Assembly: GCF_037976825.1 (NCBI RefSeq)
Contig: NZ_CP150269.1
Span: 6,568,501 to 6,632,500, forward strand
Direction: 5' to 3'
DNA from: Paenibacillus sp. FSL K6-1330
GTDB lineage: Bacteria > Bacillota > Bacilli > Paenibacillales > Paenibacillaceae
DNA length: 64,000 bases
Below are positions 6,422 to 33,412 of this stretch, in pieces. The notes beneath the pieces are model-generated. The model was not told where the DNA came from. It was given only the letters and a program-made list of their open reading frames with translations, and searched no databases. Made by a program: the position numbers and the translations under genes. Each line of letters begins with the position of its first letter. The first letter of the stretch is position 1.

Positions 6422-7600
6422 TTATTTCAAATCATTCAAAAAGCTTGTTCCGTGCTCTGGCAGCTTCACGCCAAAGTTGTCGGCAACCGTGGCGCCAAGG
6501 TCAGCAAAGGTCTTGCAAAGCGGAAGTTCCTTCCCCTCCGCAAAACGTGGAGAATAAACAAGCAGCGGTACGTATTCACGCGTATGGTCCGTTCCTTTGT
6601 AAGTCGGATCATTCCCGTGGTCGGCCGTGATGATCAGTAGATCCTTTTCCGTCATTTTCTCAAATACCTCGGGCAGGCGCTGATCGTAATCCTCCAACGC
6701 TTGGCCATATCCTTTTGGATCGCGTCGGTGTCCGTATACCGCATCGAAATCCACGAGGTTCAGGAAGCTTAGTCCCTTGAAGGATTCACCCAGGGTTTGC
6801 ACCATTTTGTCCATGCCGTCCATATTCGATACGGTTCTGACTGCCTTCGTAATGCCTTCGCCATCAAAAATATCGGAGATTTTACCAAGAGCAATGACGT
6901 CTAGACCAGCATCTTTCATTTCATTCATCGTGGTACGTCCGAAAGGCTTCAAGGCATAGTCATGCCGATTCGCCGTACGCTTGAAGCTCCCCACCTCGCC
7001 AATGAACGGACGCGCGATGATCCGGCCGAGCATATAAGGATCTTCCAGCGTGATTTCGCGGCAGAATTCGCAGATTTCGTACAGCTCTTTCAGTGGAACG
7101 ATATCCTCATGCGCAGCGATTTGAAGCACGGAGTCCGCCGAGGTATAGATGATCAAAGCCCCCGTTTTTACGTGCTCTTCGCCAAGCTCTTCGATAATCT
7201 CCGTTCCGCTGGCCGGCTTGTTGCCGATGACCTTGCGTCCGGTCTTCTCTTCAATGCACTGGATCAGCTCATCCGGGAATCCGTCCGGGAACACGCGGAA
7301 TGGCGTATCGATATACAAGCCCATGATCTCCCAGTGACCCGTCATGGTATCTTTGCCATTCGAAGCTTCCTGCATCTTCGTATAGTAAGCCCGAGGTTTG
7401 TCCGCGACAGGGACTCCCTCGATCTCCCGAATGTTGGACAGCCCGAGCGCTGCCATATTCGGCATGTTGAGCCCGCCGCATTCGCGGGCGATATGACCCA
7501 GTGTGTCGGATCCGACATCGTCAAAATCAGCCGCATCCGGTGCTTCACCGATACCTACAGAGTCCAATACGATCAAGTGAATTCGGTCAAAACGTTCCAT
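6422..7600 (-). CDS. deoB: Phosphopentomutase
   Basis: DeoB interconverts (deoxy)ribose-1-phosphate and -5-phosphate, linking the phosphorylases to DeoC. The length of about 392 residues and the alkaline-phosphatase-superfamily metal motifs fit: [13 protein letters not shown] at the N-terminus, [10 protein letters not shown] and HTREYVPL near the C-terminus. The central cap domain typical of phosphopentomutases is present. Two in-frame ATGs (7606 and 7600) follow GGGGGAG; the second has the better eight-base spacing. The gene lies between nupC and deoD in the same direction. Confidence 0.95.
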
Positions 7601-25134: not shown

Positions 25135-25656
25135 ATGAACTATCCTGTCAAAATGTATGAGTACCATGTATGGGCCAACCAAGCGATATTCAACCGCCTG
25201 CTGGAACTGCCGGGCGAATTGTACAATCGGAAAATAACGAGCATTTTCCCAACCGTATCCGAAGCGTTGATTCACATCTACACGGCGGATCTCGGATGGA
25301 TGAACATTTTATCCGGAATGGACATGAACCATGCTTTAACGGAGGCCTTCCAGCTCCGAGACGAGCTTGAGTCCATTTCACTGGAGGACCTAAACCTCCG
25401 GTTTATCGAGCTGTCAGAGCGATTCACGGCTTTTCTCAGCCATAATCCTGACCTGGAACGGATCATCCGATTGGATAATCCTTATGCCGGGATCCGGGAT
25501 ACCCGCCTGTCCGAGATTATGCTTCATGTCGTGAACCACGGCACGTACCATCGTGGAAATATTGCCGCCATGATGCGCCAGCTCGGAAGCTCCTCCGCGA
25601 TGACCGACTACGCTTTTTTTTGGTACCAGAGTGAGCAGGAGTTGGTTCTTACCTGA
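25135..25656 (+). CDS. DinB-family protein
   Basis: A 173-residue DinB/YfiT-like four-helix bundle protein. Metal-ligand histidines are in the usual places: EALIHIYTADLGW and MLHVVNHGTYHRGNIAAMM. Such proteins are metal-dependent thiol transferases or of unknown function, some DNA-damage induced. I start at 25135 (MNYPVKMYEYHVWANQ); the longer frame from 25057 would begin inside the terminator hairpin. AAAGGGG lies eight to nine bases upstream. Confidence 0.85.
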   Translation: MNYPVKMYEYHVWANQAIFNRLLELPGELYNRKITSIFPTVSEALIHIYTADLGWMNILSGMDMNHALTEAFQLRDELESISLEDLNLRFIELSERFTAFLSHNPDLERIIRLDNPYAGIRDTRLSEIMLHVVNHGTYHRGNIAAMMRQLGSSSAMTDYAFFWYQSEQELVLT

Positions 25657-25739
25657 ATGACTCGAAGCATAGCGGCAATCGCCCCTCGCCCCTGATCCGG
25701 AAATCCCATATCGGGTATCAGGCCGGCAAATACTGCACC

Positions 25740-25779
25740 CAAAAAGCCTGCTTCAGAATCGGGTTCCAAGGCAGGCTTT
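25740..25779 (-). terminator. Terminator of the ehu-ect operon
   Basis: AAAGCCTGC/GCAGGCTTT arms (25743-25751, 25771-25779); minus-strand RNA continues with UUUU. It lies 16 bases past the UPF0316 gene, the last gene of the operon. A weaker hairpin (CCTGAT/ATCAGG, about 25691-25722) next to it may serve dinB. Confidence 0.8.
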
Positions 25780-25794
25780 CCTATTACATGTGTT

Positions 25795-26331
25795 CTACAA
25801 TTTCAATTTGCGTCCTTCCGTCAATCGTACCCAGAAGCCGCCTTTGAAACTTTTCGGTTCATGGGAGATAATGAACGCCTGCGGCGACATTTTGGATAGT
25901 GACTCCATCAACCGCCGCTCGTTCTTCCGTTTCACGAGCACTTGAAGCACGAGCCGTTTGCCATCCTTGCCGTCCGCTTCCCAGGCGGTCACGCCATATC
26001 CTTTCTCCCGCAGGTTCATCGCCAGGTTCGTCTCAACGGAATTAACGATAACCTGTACCACGATGTATCCGAGTGCCAAATATTCCTCGATCCGACTGCC
26101 GGCATATACGCCAAGGCCGAAGCCCAGGCAATAGGCCGCCATATTAAAAGGATTGTCCAGATTTTGCAGGACGAGATTGAGGCCGAGCAGGTAGACGAAT
26201 ACCTCCAGCATGGCCAGAAGGGAGGCGATCCCCCTTCTGCCTTTGATCATCAGAATCAGCCGCAGCGAAAAGATCGAGACATAGACTACGTTGATGCCGA
26301 TGATGGAACCGATAAGTGTCAGCGAGATCAT
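25795..26331 (-). CDS. UPF0316/DUF2179-type membrane protein
   Basis: A 178-residue protein with three N-terminal membrane helices (about residues 5-25, 36-56, 60-78) and a small cytoplasmic alpha/beta domain (YIVVQVIVNSVETNLAMNLREKGYGVTAW, then VLQVLVKRKNERRLMESL). This is the layout of the UPF0316 (YebE-like) family, function unknown. Its ATG overlaps the ectD stop (ATGA), so it is translationally coupled to ectoine hydroxylation and closes the osmoadaptation operon. That position hints at a role in solute or ion homeostasis, which is inference. Confidence 0.85.
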   Translation of the reverse strand: MISLTLIGSIIGINVVYVSIFSLRLILMIKGRRGIASLLAMLEVFVYLLGLNLVLQNLDNPFNMAAYCLGFGLGVYAGSRIEEYLALGYIVVQVIVNSVETNLAMNLREKGYGVTAWEADGKDGKRLVLQVLVKRKNERRLMESLSKMSPQAFIISHEPKSFKGGFWVRLTEGRKLKL

Positions 26332-27236
26332 TGAGAATCACGAGTGGCGATATACTCCGGTCTTGGCTTCTGGCCCGAATACGGCTGCTTGACCTTGTTC
26401 TCCACGCTGTTATAAACCATGAAAATATTGCTGCGCGGCATCGGCGTAATGTTACTGTTCGAACCGTGCATAATGTTGCAGTCAAAAATCACGATTGAGC
26501 CCGCTTTGCCAACCGGCGTGTCGATACCGCCTTTCTTCACCATGCTTGTCAGGCTGTCATGATCCGGAACACCGTACTCCTGCTTACGCAGGGAATCCTT
26601 GAAGTGATCCTCCGGCGTTTGGCCGATGCAGGCCACGAATTCCTTATGCGACCCCGGCACAACCATAAGCGGTCCGTTATAAGGGTAGTTATCCTCCAGG
26701 GCAATGGAGCAGCTCAACGCTCTCATGCGTGGCATGCCATCCTCGACATGCCACGTTTCGAAATCGGAGTGCCAATAGAACTCCTTGCCCGTAAAGCCCG
26801 GCTTGTAATTAATTCGGGATTGATGGATATACGTCTCGCCTCCCAAGAGGTATTCCATAATCGCCAGGAGTCTCGGATGCTGGGATAGCTTCTTGAACAC
26901 TTCATGGCTCTCATGCACCGCGAATACCGACCGCACTTCATTCCCGCCCGGCTCCCGGATCACTTCATCCTTGTCCGATTCTCTTGCCGTTACCTGCAAA
27001 CTGCGGGCTTCCGCCTGATATTTCGACAGCTCCTCTCGACCAAAAAAGTCTTCCAGGAATAAATATCCGTTGCGCTCATAGAAGTCGGATTGCTCCTGCG
27101 TTAACGCTGCATCCGGACTCCATTCGGAATGAACGACAGGATCCTGTCTCTTTAGGATTCGGGGCTCCGCATGCACTCTTGAAGGATAAACGTCCAGTTC
27201 TTTTTCCTGAAGGGCCGACACATGATTATTACTCAT
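26328..27236 (-). CDS. ectD: Ectoine 5-hydroxylase
   Basis: An Fe(II)/2-oxoglutarate dioxygenase turning ectoine into 5-hydroxyectoine. At 302 residues it has the normal length. The EctD signature FYWHSDFETWHVEDGMPRMR near residue 147 includes the first Fe ligands (His and Asp of HSD); the second His is in IMHGSNSNITPMPRSN, followed by the 2-oxoglutarate-binding Arg. The N-terminus YPSRV is also typical. It lies 14 bases after ectC. Its presence means the strain probably makes hydroxyectoine as well as ectoine. Confidence 0.96.
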   Translation of the reverse strand: MSNNHVSALQEKELDVYPSRVHAEPRILKRQDPVVHSEWSPDAALTQEQSDFYERNGYLFLEDFFGREELSKYQAEARSLQVTARESDKDEVIREPGGNEVRSVFAVHESHEVFKKLSQHPRLLAIMEYLLGGETYIHQSRINYKPGFTGKEFYWHSDFETWHVEDGMPRMRALSCSIALEDNYPYNGPLMVVPGSHKEFVACIGQTPEDHFKDSLRKQEYGVPDHDSLTSMVKKGGIDTPVGKAGSIVIFDCNIMHGSNSNITPMPRSNIFMVYNSVENKVKQPYSGQKPRPEYIATRDSQ

Positions 27237-27250
27237 CGCATATCATCTCC

Positions 27251-27643
27251 TTAATCTGAAATTGGGGCGAGCAGCGGGTAGGTTCCTTCCTCATCGTGAA
27301 CTTCAGCACCGGTAAGCGGCGGATTGAATACGCAGACCATCCGCATCTGCGAACGGGCTCTCAAATAATGCTTCTCATGACCGTCCAGCGCGTACATCAT
27401 CCCTGGGGATATCGGGTAGGTTTCACCCCCGATAACCTCGATCTCCCCCTCCCCTTCGATGCAATACACGGCTTCGACGTGGTTTTTGTACCAGATCAGC
27501 GTCTCCGTTCCGGCCTTGATGAGGGTATCATTGAGAGAGAAACCCATGCCGTCCTTGGTGAGCAGCAGCCTTCTCGAATTCCATGTCTTGGTATCGATAT
27601 CGTCCTTGGTATCCACGATCTCTTCCAAATGTTTAACAATCAT
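27251..27643 (-). CDS. ectC: Ectoine synthase
   Basis: A 130-residue cupin that cyclises N-gamma-acetyl-diaminobutyrate to ectoine. The N-terminus MIVKHLEEIVDTKDDIDTKTW and the core WYKNHVEAVYCIEGEGEIE..PGMMYALDGHEKHYLRA, with the metal-binding Glu, Tyr and His, match the family. Its start overlaps the ectB stop by four bases (ATGA type). Confidence 0.96.
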   Translation of the reverse strand: MIVKHLEEIVDTKDDIDTKTWNSRRLLLTKDGMGFSLNDTLIKAGTETLIWYKNHVEAVYCIEGEGEIEVIGGETYPISPGMMYALDGHEKHYLRARSQMRMVCVFNPPLTGAEVHDEEGTYPLLAPISD

Positions 27644-28932
27644 GACAACCTCTCCTCTGCAGCTAATTGTTTCATACTGTTCTCAAATATCCCCAATCCC
27701 TGTGTCAATGTGTTCATTTCAATCGTCAGCGGCGGCATCAGCTTTGCCACTTCGCTGTGCGGACCCGACGTTTCCATAATCAATCCTTGCTCGAAAGCGA
27801 TCTCGGACAGTCTGCTTGCAAGTTCCGGCTTATCAAAAGCAACCCCCTGAATCATGCCTCTGCCGCGAATATCGCCGACGAGCTTAGGGTAATCCTTCAC
27901 AACGCCTTCCAATGATTGGCGAATCCGATTCTCCCTAATGCCGATATCGAGCTGAAAATCTTTCGTTTTCCAATAATTCAGCGCTTCGGCCGCGGCCACG
28001 AATCCGAGATTATTGCCCCGGAAGGTACCGTTGTGCTCCCCCGGCTCCCATATATCGATCTCCGGCTTGATCAGCGTAATCGCCATCGGCAAGCCAAAGC
28101 CGCCAATCGATTTCGAGAGACATACGATATCCGGCTCAATGTCGGCATCATCAAAACTAAAGAACGGCCCGGTTCTGCCGCAGCCCATCTGGATATCATC
28201 CAAAATAAGCAGCATCCCCTTATCCTTACAGATGCGTGTCAGCTTTTGCAGCCATTCCCGGCTGGCGGCGTTTAATCCGCCTTCCCCCTGCACCGCCTCG
28301 ACGATCACCGCAGCCGGAAGCGGAATGCCGCTTCCCGGATCATCCAGAAGCTTCTCCATATATGCCATCGTATCCACGTCATCGCCAAAGTAACCGTCAT
28401 AAGGCATAAATACCGAATGGCTCAGATCCACGCCTGCGCCTTGGCGTTTGAAGGAATTGCCGGTAACCGCCAGCGATCCCAGCGACATGCCATGAAAGGC
28501 ATTCGTGAAGCATAGAACGGTGCTGCGCCCCGTCACTTTGCGGGCGATTTTGAGCGCTGCCTCTACGGCATTCGTTCCGGTCGGACCGGGAAACATCACT
28601 TTGTGATCCCACCCGCGCGGCTTCAGGATGACTTCCTGAAATCGGGTCAGAAACGTTTCCTTTGCATCCGTAGCCATATCCAGACTATGCGTGACGCCGT
28701 CCCTCAGAATGTAGTCGACCAGTTTCTCGCGAATCTTCTCATTGTTATGTCCGTAATTTAAAGCACCGGCTCCCGCAAAAAAATCAATGTATTCATTGCC
28801 CTGCGTATCCCACAGCTTCGCATTCCGTGCCTTGTCGAAAACGGTCTGAAAGCTCCGGCAATAACTTCTTACTTCCGATTCCAGCTTGTTAAACACAGTA
28901 AGCTTCGGTTTCTCCATGACTTGGTTGTCCAT
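27640..28932 (-). CDS. ectB: Diaminobutyrate-2-oxoglutarate transaminase
   Basis: A PLP-dependent class III aminotransferase making L-2,4-diaminobutyrate from aspartate semialdehyde. About 430 residues. Visible are FFAGAGALNYGHNN, GPTGTNAVEAALKIARK for PLP phosphate binding, LILDDIQMGCGRTG with the cofactor Asp, and the Schiff-base Lys in CLSKSIGGFGLPMAI. The ATG at 28932 has GGAGGG with four-to-five-base spacing; the frame extends upstream into ectA without a site. Confidence 0.96.
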   Translation of the reverse strand: MDNQVMEKPKLTVFNKLESEVRSYCRSFQTVFDKARNAKLWDTQGNEYIDFFAGAGALNYGHNNEKIREKLVDYILRDGVTHSLDMATDAKETFLTRFQEVILKPRGWDHKVMFPGPTGTNAVEAALKIARKVTGRSTVLCFTNAFHGMSLGSLAVTGNSFKRQGAGVDLSHSVFMPYDGYFGDDVDTMAYMEKLLDDPGSGIPLPAAVIVEAVQGEGGLNAASREWLQKLTRICKDKGMLLILDDIQMGCGRTGPFFSFDDADIEPDIVCLSKSIGGFGLPMAITLIKPEIDIWEPGEHNGTFRGNNLGFVAAAEALNYWKTKDFQLDIGIRENRIRQSLEGVVKDYPKLVGDIRGRGMIQGVAFDKPELASRLSEIAFEQGLIMETSGPHSEVAKLMPPLTIEMNTLTQGLGIFENSMKQLAAEERLS

Positions 28933-28948
28933 AGTTCCCTCCATTTGT

Positions 28949-29461
28949 TTAAATGTCATTGAAAAAGGGGCCAATCACGAATAACGGCTCATCTTCATGA
29001 GATGTCCCATCAGGGAACATCTCTGCTCCATAACCTACGGTTACGGTGCTGGGAATGGATTTCTCCTCGGCATAACCGAGAAACAAACGACGGGACGCCA
29101 TGTTGCTCGGCGATACCGTAGCTTCAATATAACGGACACCATGGCATGCCTTCTGATTCATGAGACCTGTCAGCATCGCCTTGGCAATGCCTTGCCTCCG
29201 ATGCGAATTAGCAACGGCCACTTGCCATACGAACAGCGTCTCCGGATTACGAGGAGAACGGAAGGCGGAAATAAAACCGATGATATCTCCTTCATGCTCG
29301 GCGATCATGCAGGTATCATGGAAGTAATCTCCAAGCAGCATGTAACAATAAGGGGAGTTCAGATCAAGCGATCCGGTGTCGCGTATGAGCTCCCACACCC
29401 GGGTGCCATCCCGTGCTTCCGGTCTTCGGTAAACAATTTCGGTTTCGGTATCCACAGCCAT
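28949..29461 (-). CDS. ectA: L-2,4-diaminobutyrate acetyltransferase
   Basis: A GNAT enzyme acetylating the gamma-amino group of diaminobutyrate. The 170-residue protein has YRRPEARDGTRVWELI, LNSPYCYMLLGDYF, the acetyl-CoA loop VANSHRRQGIAKAML, and YIEATVSPSNMASRRLF. The start at 29461 follows GAGGTGAT, a strong anti-SD match, with proper spacing; the upstream GTG falls inside that site. It follows ehuA by 24 bases. Confidence 0.95.
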   Translation of the reverse strand: MAVDTETEIVYRRPEARDGTRVWELIRDTGSLDLNSPYCYMLLGDYFHDTCMIAEHEGDIIGFISAFRSPRNPETLFVWQVAVANSHRRQGIAKAMLTGLMNQKACHGVRYIEATVSPSNMASRRLFLGYAEEKSIPSTVTVGYGAEMFPDGTSHEDEPLFVIGPFFNDI

Positions 29462-29485
29462 TCTATACATCACCTCTTTCCAGAA

Positions 29486-30361
29486 CTAATTTCCGTTGGA
29501 ACGGAATCGCTGCAGGAAGCTCTGCAGTCGCTCGCTCTGGGGATTATCGAATATCTCCTCCGGCGTGCCCTGCTCAACGATCCTTCCATCGGCTCCGAAT
29601 ATGACCCGATCCGCGATTTCCTTCGCAAAATCCATCTCATGCGTAATCAGCATCATGGCCATTTCGCCTTCATCCGCGATTTCCCGAATGACCTCCAGCA
29701 CCTCGCCGACCAGCTCCGGATCAAGAGCCGAGGTGACCTCGTCAAACACCATTACCTTCGGCCGCATGACCAGCGCTCTGGCGATGGCAACCCGCTGCTT
29801 CTGCCCCCCGGACAGATTGGACGGATACATCTTCAGCTTGTCGGCCAAACCGACCTTGCTTAGCATGGAGACGGCCCGCTCCTCCGCCTCTTCCTTGGAT
29901 AAACCCAGCACCTTACGCGGGGCCTCCGTCACATTGCGAAGTACATTCATGTGCGGGAACAGATTAAAATGCTGGAAGATCATGCCGACGTTGCATCGCA
30001 TCCGGTGCAAATGCTTTTCGCTGGCCCGAACCAGCTTCCCTTTCTCTTCCATATGCCAGAGCAGCTCGCCATCAACCTCGATGGTTCCTTCGGTGGGTTC
30101 TTCCAGCGTCATCAGCATCCGGCCCATTGTCGTTTTGCCCGATCCGCTTGGACCGATCACAGCCACCTTTTCTCCAGGCTGCATCTCCAGATCGATGCCT
30201 TTAAGCACCTGGAGATCACCAAACGACTTGGTCACGCCCGTATATTTCACAATCGGCTTGGTACCCGTAGCGGGATTGTTCCCCTGCTGCGGTACCTTCG
30301 AAGCTTCCGCTTGCTCATCGATCACAACGGCATTCAATAGACTCCCTCCTTTATTTTCCAC
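29486..30361 (-). CDS. ehuA: Ectoine/hydroxyectoine ABC transporter ATP-binding protein
   Basis: A 291-residue polar-amino-acid-type ABC ATPase with an unusual N-terminal extension of about 37 residues. Walker A GPSGSGKTT, Q-loop FQHFNLFPHMNV, signature LSGGQKQR, Walker B VMVFDEVTSALD and switch ITHEMDFA are intact. It energises the EhuC/EhuD permease. Its start overlaps ehuD by 11 bases. The ectoine-specific name rests on the neighbouring ectABCD genes and the EhuB-like binding protein. Confidence 0.9.
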   Translation of the reverse strand: MENKGGSLLNAVVIDEQAEASKVPQQGNNPATGTKPIVKYTGVTKSFGDLQVLKGIDLEMQPGEKVAVIGPSGSGKTTMGRMLMTLEEPTEGTIEVDGELLWHMEEKGKLVRASEKHLHRMRCNVGMIFQHFNLFPHMNVLRNVTEAPRKVLGLSKEEAEERAVSMLSKVGLADKLKMYPSNLSGGQKQRVAIARALVMRPKVMVFDEVTSALDPELVGEVLEVIREIADEGEMAMMLITHEMDFAKEIADRVIFGADGRIVEQGTPEEIFDNPQSERLQSFLQRFRSNGN

Positions 30362-31013
30362 GCTGCAGATTCAAACGTTTTTCCAGCCTTTGCACAAGCA
30401 AAGATGCGATATAACTGATGATCAGGAACAGAATCCCGACCAGCGTATACGGCTCAAATGCACGGAACGACTGCGACACGATATTTTTGGCCGTCAGCAT
30501 CATCTCCACCAGCGTGATGGCGCATAGAATCGGCGTTTCTTTAAACATGACAATTAAATAATTGCCCAGTACCGGAATGATTGGCGGCACCGCTTGCGGC
30601 AGGATAATACTTCGCCAGGTTTTAGCTTTCGTGTAATTCAGTGCTGTGGCAGCCTCCCATTGCCCCTTCGGCACTCCCTCGATTCCGGAACGGTACACCT
30701 CGGACAGATAGGTGCTGTAATGCAGCCCGAGACCGATGACCCCGGCATAGAAGGCCGGAATGGAAATTCCCGTTAGGAGCGGCAGACTGTAATACAGGAA
30801 GAAGACCTGAACCAGCAGCGGTGTATTGCGAATAAATTCAATGATTCCTTTGGTTATAAGCGACAACAGCTTAAATCGGCTCCGCGTCGCAAAGGCAAGC
30901 AGCAATCCGATGATTAATGCCACCACGAAAGCGCAGATCGTCACCCATACCGTCATCTTTAACGCACTCAAGAGCTGCGGCAGGATATCCCACACATAGT
31001 TCCAGTCCCACAT
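30351..31013 (-). CDS. ehuD: Ectoine/hydroxyectoine ABC transporter permease
   Basis: A 220-residue permease of the HisM/GlnP type with about five membrane helices and an EAA loop PKGQWEAATALNYTKAKTWRSIILP near residue 143. The ATG at 31013 is preferred because GGGGAGG lies eight bases upstream; longer forms run into ehuC. It probably pairs with EhuC. Confidence 0.9.
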   Translation of the reverse strand: MWDWNYVWDILPQLLSALKMTVWVTICAFVVALIIGLLLAFATRSRFKLLSLITKGIIEFIRNTPLLVQVFFLYYSLPLLTGISIPAFYAGVIGLGLHYSTYLSEVYRSGIEGVPKGQWEAATALNYTKAKTWRSIILPQAVPPIIPVLGNYLIVMFKETPILCAITLVEMMLTAKNIVSQSFRAFEPYTLVGILFLIISYIASLLVQRLEKRLNLQRGK

Positions 31014-31015
31014 GT

Positions 31016-31669
31016 CTATAACCTCCCCGCTGTCCATTTACGCTCCAGCAGTCGAACTGCCAGCGATACGAGCGTAGCAATGACAAAATACATGAGGAGC
31101 AGCAGTACCAGAATCTCGGTCGTCCAGGAGATGTAATTGTTGCGGAGCACCATCGCCTGATACGTCAAATCCGCCATGGTGATGAAATAAACCAATGAGG
31201 TGGATTTGATGAGTTCCACAAGCTGATTCCCGAAAGGGGGAAGCATTCGCAAGGAAGCTTGAGGCAATATCACATTCAACAGCCTTTGCCAAGGCTTCAG
31301 ATTAAGCGCTAAAGCGGCCTCCCACTGTCCTTTCGGAACGGCCAGCACAGCGCTTCGGACGATCTCCGAGCCGTATGCGCCGAAGTTTAGCCCGATCGCA
31401 AGGATGGCCGCCAACATTTTCGGCAGCTCGATGCCGATGAACGGAAGAGCGAAATACAACCAAAACAGCTGCACCAGCAAGGAGGTTCCCCGAAAGACTT
31501 CCACGTACACGGCTGTCAATGTGCGAATGATCCACAGCTTCGACAGTCGGCATAACCCGGCTGCAAAGGACATCACGACCGCAAGGATGGCTGAAAAGAA
31601 AGCTACCACAATCGTGATCTCCGCCCCTTTTAGCAGCGTAGGGAGAAAATCAATCCACGAATTCGGCAT
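31016..31669 (-). CDS. ehuC: Ectoine/hydroxyectoine ABC transporter permease
   Basis: A 217-residue permease, paralogous to the next gene, with about five helices, the membrane segment TLLKGAEITIVVAFFSAIL and the EAA loop PKGQWEAALALNLKPWQRLLNVILP near residue 117. Its start follows the ehuB stop by one base, so translation is coupled. Confidence 0.9.
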   Translation of the reverse strand: MPNSWIDFLPTLLKGAEITIVVAFFSAILAVVMSFAAGLCRLSKLWIIRTLTAVYVEVFRGTSLLVQLFWLYFALPFIGIELPKMLAAILAIGLNFGAYGSEIVRSAVLAVPKGQWEAALALNLKPWQRLLNVILPQASLRMLPPFGNQLVELIKSTSLVYFITMADLTYQAMVLRNNYISWTTEILVLLLLMYFVIATLVSLAVRLLERKWTAGRL

Positions 31670-31670
31670 A

Positions 31671-32558
31671 CTATTCCCCGCAAAGCGCAGCAGCCGTCAT
31701 TTCACCCGGAAGCTCTTCTTCTGTGAATCCGAACTTCTGCAGAATTTCCAGCAGCTCGCCCGATTCCTTCATTTTTTGCAGCTCCGCATTATAAGCCTCC
31801 TGGAACTCGGTATCCGCTTGGCGGAACGCCGTAGCTCCATAACCCCGAACGCTTTCTCCATCGATGACCGGCTGCTCGAAATCAGTTACACGTTCGATGT
31901 TGTCATCACTAGCCGAATCCAGCATCGCCTGCAGAGAGGGTCCCGTCATGGTAATCGCCTGTACCCGGTCTGCCTGAAGGGCGCTAATAGCCGAGGCCTG
32001 GTCGGGGACCTGTATGATCCGGTCTGAAGGAATACCGGACTTCTCCATATAGCCGATTTCAACCGCGCCTGTCATGACGGCGACCTTAGCCTGGTCATGA
32101 TTAGCAATATCCTCATAACTTCCGAGTTCCATCGGATTCCCTTGCTTCACCGCAATGGCTTCCCCGATGCTGTACTCCGGATTGGCAAACAATACGGCGG
32201 AGCAGCGGTCCGGATTAATGAACATGCCTGCGGTGATTAGATCAAACCGCTCGGCCTGCAGTCCGGCAACCAGTGAACCGAATTCCGTCAGCTCTCCCCT
32301 CATTTCCTTGATGCCAAGCCGCTCCAGAATAACCCGAGCAATCTCAACGGCTTCTCCCGTCAGCTCCCCGTTGGCCTCTTTATAGGCATAAGGCTTCTCA
32401 TTCGCAAAACCTACGGTGATATACCCTTGCTCCATGGCGCGATCCAGTGTACTCCCTTTGTCACCGCAAGCCGCAAGCAATACCACCATAGTCACTGATA
32501 ACATCAGCACAAGCACTCTCTTCAAAACCTTCCACAACCTTTCGTTATGACTTTGCAA
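31671..32558 (-). CDS. ehuB: Ectoine/hydroxyectoine-binding lipoprotein
   Basis: A class II binding protein of the polar amino acid family. The signal peptide ends in a lipobox (VVLLAACG, Cys near residue 31 of this form), followed by YITVGFANEKPYAYKEANGELTGEAVEIARVIL, the typical first-lobe motif, and SVRGYGATAFRQADTEFQEAYN near the C-terminus. The start is uncertain: only TTG or GTG codons are available between 32558 and 32510, and none has a well-spaced site. A weak or regulated translation start is possible. It is the first gene after the riboswitch terminator. Confidence 0.88.
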   Translation of the reverse strand: MQSHNERLWKVLKRVLVLMLSVTMVVLLAACGDKGSTLDRAMEQGYITVGFANEKPYAYKEANGELTGEAVEIARVILERLGIKEMRGELTEFGSLVAGLQAERFDLITAGMFINPDRCSAVLFANPEYSIGEAIAVKQGNPMELGSYEDIANHDQAKVAVMTGAVEIGYMEKSGIPSDRIIQVPDQASAISALQADRVQAITMTGPSLQAMLDSASDDNIERVTDFEQPVIDGESVRGYGATAFRQADTEFQEAYNAELQKMKESGELLEILQKFGFTEEELPGEMTAAALCGE

Positions 32559-32590
32559 TCCTTACAAAATGGCATGTTGAAATTACCCTT

Positions 32591-32608
32591 GTTAACGCAT
32601 ATGTTAAC
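32591..32608. promoter_or_regulatory. Palindrome before ehuB
   Basis: GTTAAC arms repeated as an inverted repeat around GCATAT, 33-50 bases upstream of the earliest ehuB start. It could be an operator for a dedicated regulator or part of a second, weaker promoter. No regulator gene lies in this operon. Confidence 0.4.
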
Positions 32609-32814
32609 TTGGATATAAGGACATTCAGACACCTTGCACGGGTCGGGGCTTCAGGGAAGATGATTCATCCATCTCCTTGCACGCTTAAACCCAATGCCAT
32701 CCGACTGATTCAATTGGTTAAACATTTGCAGGCCTTGCCCCTCCTCTTTAGCAGAATACAAAAAGACCACCAAACAGGGGATTTAGACATAGCTCCGCCA
32801 GCAGGGGGTCAAAA

Positions 32815-32851
32815 AATAGAGAAAAGGCCCCTAAGAGAATCAAGGGCCTTT
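32815..32851 (-). terminator. Riboswitch expression-platform terminator
   Basis: AAAGGCCC/GGGCCTTT (32823-32830, 32844-32851) with a 13-base loop. Minus-strand RNA continues UUUUCUCUAUUUUUU. It lies directly after the aptamer and 255 bases before ehuB, so ligand binding can decide read-through. Confidence 0.85.
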
Positions 32852-32884
32852 GTTATGAACATCCATTATGTATGCAAGACCCAT

Positions 32885-33014
32885 CCACTGCTGACGAGGT
32901 TAGCTGACGGACTCGGGTAAGATGGTACCCTACACTCATGATTCCAAGTGACTCGCCCCTGGTGAAACTGGTTCCCCCGCTTTCCGGAAAATGTATGCCG
33001 GAAACTAAGCGTGT
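32885..33014 (-). ncRNA. c-di-AMP riboswitch aptamer (ydaO-yuaA class)
   Basis: The minus strand contains the conserved blocks of the ydaO class in order: CGCTTAG near the 5' end, AGCGGGGGAACC, AGGGGCGAGTC (usual form GGGGUGAAUC, here with two changes), GTAGGGTA..TTACCCGAGTCC, and GTCAGCTAACCTCGTCAGC at the 3' end. Spacing is normal. It starts a few bases after a strong promoter and is followed at once by an intrinsic terminator, the standard c-di-AMP OFF-switch design. The first downstream genes are ehuBCDA-ectABCD. Class identity is recognised from memory of the consensus, not from a covariance search. Confidence 0.88.
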
Positions 33015-33018
33015 GTCC

Positions 33019-33047
33019 ATGATAAAGGGAAGTTTAGGAAAAGTCAA
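33019..33047 (-). promoter_or_regulatory. Sigma-A promoter of the riboswitch/ehu-ect transcript
   Basis: Minus strand -35 TTGACT (33042-33047), 17-base spacer, -10 TATCAT (33019-33024). Transcription would begin near 33012, at the 5' edge of the aptamer. The remaining 33060-33412 holds nothing I recognise apart from a GCTGG/CCAGC hairpin near 33355-33366. Confidence 0.75.
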
Positions 33048-33412
33048 ACCCCTTAAACCGCTTTTTCTGGAAATTCACACGCAGAAATGCCATTCTTCCG
33101 GGGTGTATGACAAGCTAGAAAAATGCCTCATTCAAGCTTGTCCACCTACAACATAGGAATTTTATCCCAGACCAATTTTTCGCTATATAGCAGGCGTTTG
33201 CCATGCCTCCCTTACTCGTTCATGTGATGGATAGTTTATGCCATGAATTAGACCAAAACAGTGGAAAGCTTCTACAACTCCATCTGAACCAAAAAAAATT
33301 TTTGATTATCCATTAAAAACCCATTATGACTCATTTACTTCTAGTTACGGGAGCGCTGGTGCCAGCATCATATATTAACCGCCGATAAGTGTCGGGATTT
33401 TTGGTCCATGGA

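Follow-up and report, generated by a model that had tools for sequence, protein, structure and literature searches.

Locus and gene content

The window analysed here, a stretch of 64,000 nucleotides (64 kb) from contig NZ_CP150269.1 of Paenibacillus sp. FSL K6-1330, contains an operon for the import and synthesis of the osmoprotectant ectoine, ehuBCDA-ectABCD, preceded by a riboswitch of the cyclic di-AMP (c-di-AMP) class ydaO/yuaA. The surrounding genome is 7.43 Mb in size and consists of a single contig. Among the named loci compared, the closest EhuB is that of Paenibacillus sp. EZ-K15 (98% identical), in a collection that may omit the window's own genome or very near ones. The genes of the operon are the following, in window coordinates.

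31671..32525, minus strand: ehuB, ectoine-binding lipoprotein (TIGR02995)
31016..31669, minus strand: ehuC, permease (TIGR03004)
30351..31037, minus strand: ehuD, permease (TIGR03003)
29486..30361, minus strand: ehuA, ATPase (TIGR03005)
28949..29473, minus strand: ectA (TIGR02406)
27640..28974, minus strand: ectB (TIGR02407)
27251..27643, minus strand: ectC (PF06339, NF009806)
26328..27236, minus strand: ectD (TIGR02408)
25795..26331, minus strand: DUF5698/DUF2179 (UPF0316-type) protein (NF003194, PF18955, PF10035), overlapping ectD by 4 bp

All nine genes are read from the minus strand in the order ehuB-C-D-A-ectA-B-C-D followed by the DUF5698/DUF2179 gene, with overlaps or with gaps of at most 14 bp. 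The gene models match the unidirectional, closely spaced array of ehuBCDA-ectABCD and a UPF0316 gene that a first-pass annotation of this DNA had described. For ehuB, the TTG start at 32525 appears preferable to 32558 because of the ribosome-binding-site-like GAAAGGTTGTGGAAGG upstream of it. The complete operon was described for Paenibacillus lautus, with the same gene order, by Richter et al. 2019 (PMC6915088); in the consulted sections of that paper, ehuBCDA-ectABCD is the order reported for 37 of 41 Paenibacillus ect clusters.

Leader and aptamer

The region upstream of ehuB carries the following features.

33019..33047, minus strand: sigma-A-type promoter TTGACT-17-TATCAT, 10 of 12 matches
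32876..33021, minus strand: c-di-AMP (ydaO/yuaA) riboswitch aptamer, RF00379, 70.1 bits against a cut-off of 38
32878..32897, minus strand: aptamer 3' strand and tail (UCGUCAGCAG...GGGUC), which can pair with the 5' half of hairpin 2
32823..32851, minus strand: hairpin 1 (HP1), terminator-like, 12 pairs, predicted formed in both aptamer states
32765..32810, minus strand: hairpin 2 (HP2), proposed ligand-controlled terminator, GACC...GGUC and then UUUUU, with a conserved block (32804-32788) in its 5' half

The RF00379 match is full length (1-134, E 3.2e-14), lies well above the cut-off and is the sole Rfam match above cut-off within the 64 kb. It encloses the interval 32885-33014, where the first-pass annotation had placed a ydaO-class aptamer, and is the significant hit in the covariance-model search that the annotation had proposed as a check. 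The leader was compared across 17 loci, which amount to 16 distinct leaders since the P. glucanolyticus entry is apparently the same genome as G351. P1 of the aptamer, formed by CACGCU (33013-33008) with AGCaGUG (32892-32886), retains six of six standard pairs in 17/17 leaders, as does the inner helix. As a member of this class, the aptamer would be expected to bind c-di-AMP.

The aptamer has its own promoter, as the first-pass annotation had also claimed; by reading, all 17 aligned leaders have TTGAC and -10-like boxes at the equivalent position. Over positions 25600-33100 of the minus strand, just one other promoter-like site was found, which overlaps the first (33019-32990). Since these 7.5 kb hold no further site of this kind, a single transcript is likely, and the nine genes are likely co-transcribed from one promoter.

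Seven further c-di-AMP riboswitches were found in the genome, which brings the number to eight. They precede, among others, a TrkH-type transporter, a KimA-like permease (AA_permease_2 in Pfam, the KimA name being our own reading) and cell-wall proteins; products encoded behind these elements include a protein with G5/3D domains and two apparent NlpC/P60 hydrolases. The genome encodes three diadenylate cyclase domains. As Nelson et al. reportedly found in 2013, the usual targets of the ydaO/yuaA class are K+ importers such as kimA and ktr, whereas the element here heads an operon that combines ectoine import with ectoine synthesis. A further difference is the additional hairpin between the aptamer and the proposed terminator.

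Two hairpins and the proposed switch

An immediate intrinsic terminator behind the aptamer was part of the first-pass annotation. The hairpin is present (HP1, 32851-32823), and its GGCCC/GGGCC core is retained in 16/16 aligned leaders around a variable loop; the expected response to the aptamer did not emerge. In folding calculations, HP1 was predicted formed at 0.96-1.00 in every state, with the aptamer open or closed, in 17/17 leaders, and likewise in transcripts that end just behind it. Chance alone readily yields terminator patterns such as HP1 (1 found against 1.2 expected).

HP2, which the first-pass annotation had missed, appears to be the better candidate for the ligand-controlled terminator, because its 5' half holds a near-invariant block of 17 bases that is able to pair with the aptamer 3' strand. 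This block, CTGCTGGCGGAGCTATG, is invariant in the 16 aligned leaders except for single changes in G332, G357 and G431, while the loops and the 3' arm of HP2 vary. Ten of its bases are complementary to UCGUCAGCAG of the aptamer (nine in G332), and the GACCC just before it can pair with the aptamer tail GGGUC. The helix of ten bases (nine pairs in G332) belongs to the best duplex in 17/17 leaders. The pairing energy was equalled by 0-16 of 200 shuffles per leader (17 leaders) and, for a longer aptamer segment, by 0-41 of 500 (16 leaders). Folding with an open aptamer gave HP2 values of 0.00-0.08 in 14 of the 17 leaders, and folding with a closed one (P1 and inner helix enforced) gave 0.67-1.00 in all 17.

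The proposed mechanism is a strand exchange. At low c-di-AMP the aptamer would be open, and its 3' strand, with the tail, would pair with two stretches of HP2's 5' half, CUGCUGGCGG and GACCC; with this half occupied, HP2 would not form and RNA polymerase would continue into ehuB. Once c-di-AMP is bound, P1 would close and sequester the aptamer 3' strand, so that HP2 would fold ahead of its U-run and end transcription about 240 nt before ehuB. HP1 sits between the two strands and is not expected to switch in the folding predictions; it may act as a fixed attenuator that leaks, or as a spacer by which the strands are brought together.

It is considered probable that a c-di-AMP OFF riboswitch terminates transcription via HP2 and that all of the ehuBCDA-ectABCD(-UPF0316) operon, read from a single promoter, is under its control. 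Computational support was obtained for the aptamer, the promoter, the gene identities, the conservation of HP1 and HP2, the complementarity, and switching in one folding model. Termination would take place at HP2, and high c-di-AMP would stop ectoine import and synthesis, a direction taken from the rule for the riboswitch class and from a precedent in Dehalobacter (PMC9337991).

Several observations weigh against this interpretation. HP2 is not off with the aptamer open in three of the 17 leaders (0.34 in G162, 0.77 in G044 and 0.98 in G431). In an alternative model of the closed state, in which the aptamer 3' strand alone is blocked, HP2 rises in 3/8 leaders and fails to do so in 5/8; it stays at 0.00-0.02 in four of the eight, including the window (0.00), and G431 shows about 0.9 in either state. 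The best duplex places the tail GGGUC on the HP1 arm, not on the GACCC of HP2, in 7/17 leaders. When the aptamer segment is extended, 12/16 leaders have a best duplex that joins GCUGGCGG of HP2 to the upstream repeat CCGUCAGC and uses HP1 strands, a pairing that would also link the 5' half of HP2 to the aptamer, in a different register. The helix between aptamer and HP2 is not rare in itself, equal lengths occurring in 81-354 and equal scores in 9-76 of 1000 shuffles (eight leaders), and the pairing strands vary so little that no covariation supports it. If HP1 were an efficient terminator, the operon would be shut regardless of ligand. Finally, the case is computational throughout.

The 17-base block, which has no Rfam match, was also considered as a conserved second element representing a new RNA family. 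This was not preferred on two grounds: the block is complementary to the aptamer strand, and of the 29 places examined among the 52 listed, 14 follow a c-di-AMP aptamer, with the remaining 15 outside such leaders.

Alternative explanations

The alternative that survives best, although it is unlikely, is that the riboswitch acts through HP1: without ligand, the tail GGGUCUU would pair with AAGGCCC of HP1, and HP2 would be a mere backup terminator. The pairing comprises seven pairs in the window, G431 carries a paired change (GGGUCUA/UAGGCCC, by reading), and it is this pairing that the tail adopts in the best duplex of the seven leaders mentioned above. The HP1 core is conserved, and the U-tract score of HP1 exceeds that of HP2 in 4/17 leaders. 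These points are opposed by the folding predictions, which keep HP1 formed whether the aptamer is open or closed, and by the position of the tail outside P1, so that the ligand does not directly tie it up. By reading, the pairing of the tail shrinks to 5-6 bp in G044, G144 and G174, and the conserved block of HP2 is left unexplained.

Less probable again are two checkpoints, HP2 sensing c-di-AMP and HP1 a second signal or an antitermination protein, to give two-input control. Such a role would fit the conservation of HP1 despite its lack of predicted switching, and the consulted sections of PMC9337991 describe in vitro tests of a tandem Na+/c-di-AMP logic gate that precedes a gene for an osmolyte. 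The Rfam search, however, turned up no second element in these leaders, and the loop of HP1 is variable, unlike a binding site. That the riboswitch attenuates just a short RNA, with ehuB transcribed mainly from a promoter below HP2 near an inverted repeat at 32612-32587, is very improbable: the repeat recurs about 60-90 nt before ehuB in 13/17 leaders with some paired changes (and folds weakly in two), but no minus-strand promoter-like site reaches 9/12 matches between HP2 and ehuB, and the upstream promoter is retained in 17 leaders.

The repeat itself, CCAAGTTAAC...GTTAACAAGG on the minus strand, has arms that change jointly between some leaders (CCAAG/CTTGG, CCTAG/CTAGG) and may be an RNA hairpin or an operator.

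Distribution in the order and in Bacilli

In the order, 71 of 392 sampled genomes have EctC, which amounts to 72 loci; upstream of every one of these, the sequence was searched with R1, a covariance model built in this analysis. A riboswitch stands directly before ehuB in 13 of them, namely the window and twelve relatives with the same operon, which agrees with the first-pass claim that a c-di-AMP riboswitch heads a combined import and synthesis operon and shows the arrangement to be retained in relatives. The absence of the riboswitch is weaker evidence for L141, L164, L168 and L184, which have fewer than 750 bases before ehuB. In a tree of 68 operons (EhuB, EhuC, EhuD, EctB), the 13 riboswitch operons form one clade with a support of 0.999. 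In G431, outside the 71 EctC genomes, a solitary ectD follows the riboswitch and both hairpins, HP1 and HP2. Within the 12 kb examined in G314 (L127), the locus is reduced to ectB, ectC, a remnant of ectD and the UPF0316-type gene, and ehuBCDA, ectA and the riboswitch are missing.

For the class, 398 genomes were sampled, 47 with EctC, which yielded 44 further loci beyond those already seen (two G525 fragments were excluded). With R1, a riboswitch was found before ehuB or ectA in 12/44. All 12 pass the Rfam cut-off (39.9-97.6 bits) and span five further families; the counts rest on R1 and Rfam, a regular-expression search for the aptamer having missed 11 of the 12. The riboswitch lies before ehuB in L186, L188, L189, L190, L197, L205 and L224; L187 and L192 have it upstream of ectA, and in L191, L193 and L194 its position is between the ehu and ect genes.

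Overall, 25 of 116 Bacilli ect loci, from six families and four tree groups, have a riboswitch directly before ehuB or ectA. On a midpoint-rooted tree of EctB and EctC, its distribution needs 6 state changes, whereas each of 200 label shuffles needs 18 or more. Of the four carrier groups, one comprises the 13 Paenibacillaceae operons, among which G314 is the one loss, and another is a clade of 11 loci with 10 carriers; L205 and L224 are the other two, single loci that each sit among loci without a riboswitch. The six changes fit four gains and two losses, and the gains may include transfer between lineages. As the same pairing of riboswitch and ectoine genes is found in other Bacilli, c-di-AMP probably controls ectoine directly. 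A broader proposal can be put forward tentatively: c-di-AMP control of ectoine import and synthesis may be a general rule in Bacilli that evolved about four times, with a two-hairpin gate added in Paenibacillus, where HP1 would set or sense something other than c-di-AMP.

A distal-terminator model was considered for the other families and not adopted. Long terminators complementary to the aptamer strand occur in several of the 12 class-level leaders, but folding gave no sign of switching there.

The DUF5698/DUF2179 gene is present in 6 of the 13 riboswitch operons; for three of the other seven, the sequence behind ectD covers just 440-790 bases. It also lies closely behind ectD in distant members of the order, with 74% identity in L128 and L129, which hints at an ectoine-linked role. 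By sequence, the protein has no solved relative.

Other c-di-AMP riboswitches lie near ehu-ect operons, not directly before them (L130, 116-253; L172, 10069-10213, before a DUF1611 gene; L174, 1-97, cut; L177, 1276-1414). In L169, one at 6979-7123 (plus strand) is divergent from the operon and precedes a radical SAM gene that by our own reading resembles lysine 2,3-aminomutase and would serve another osmolyte. In the same locus, ectC and ectD apparently form one reading frame of 416 aa (1628-378, minus strand), and long open frames at EctC are also seen in G217, G275 and G287. The decayed ehu-ect locus of G314 adjoins a gene that reads as collagen-like.

Relation to known systems and significance

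The first-pass annotation knew of no characterised case of the complete ehu and ect set behind one element. For the switch, no prior report was found; the operon itself was published in 2019 (PMC6915088), so the novelty would lie solely in the riboswitch ahead of it. The words riboswitch and c-di-AMP do not occur in the main text of that paper, nor in the consulted sections of a 2018 review (PMC5924519) or of a 2026 paper on ectoine in Planctomycetota (PMC13342039). Literature searches pairing c-di-AMP or ydaO riboswitches with ectoine or osmoprotectants gave no link in titles and abstract openings, and an earlier listing of ect among ydaO targets is possible.

A close likeness is found in Dehalobacter sp. 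CF, where, according to the consulted sections of White et al. 2022 (PMC9337991), a tandem Na+/c-di-AMP riboswitch precedes lysine-2,3-aminomutase. Its c-di-AMP OFF switch was tested in vitro, and the authors propose that the P1 strand pairs with the left terminator arm. Both systems have a c-di-AMP element (here presumably OFF) before osmolyte biosynthesis, the same proposed strand exchange and two terminators in series. Dehalobacter has a Na+ aptamer, whereas none was found here, where a single aptamer has both hairpins downstream; the osmolyte differs, and the operon in the window comprises nine genes.

According to the consulted sections of reviews, c-di-AMP acts on K+ transporters, on betaine and carnitine import and on cell-wall hydrolases. 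Alongside K+ import and wall remodelling, the uptake and synthesis of ectoine would come under this messenger. The leader is a small element through which the induction of ectoine in Gram-positive bacteria can be tested, and lineages can be compared by means of the 25 loci. If the interpretation is true, one messenger would balance ionic and organic osmolytes through RNA control of both the production and the recovery of ectoine.

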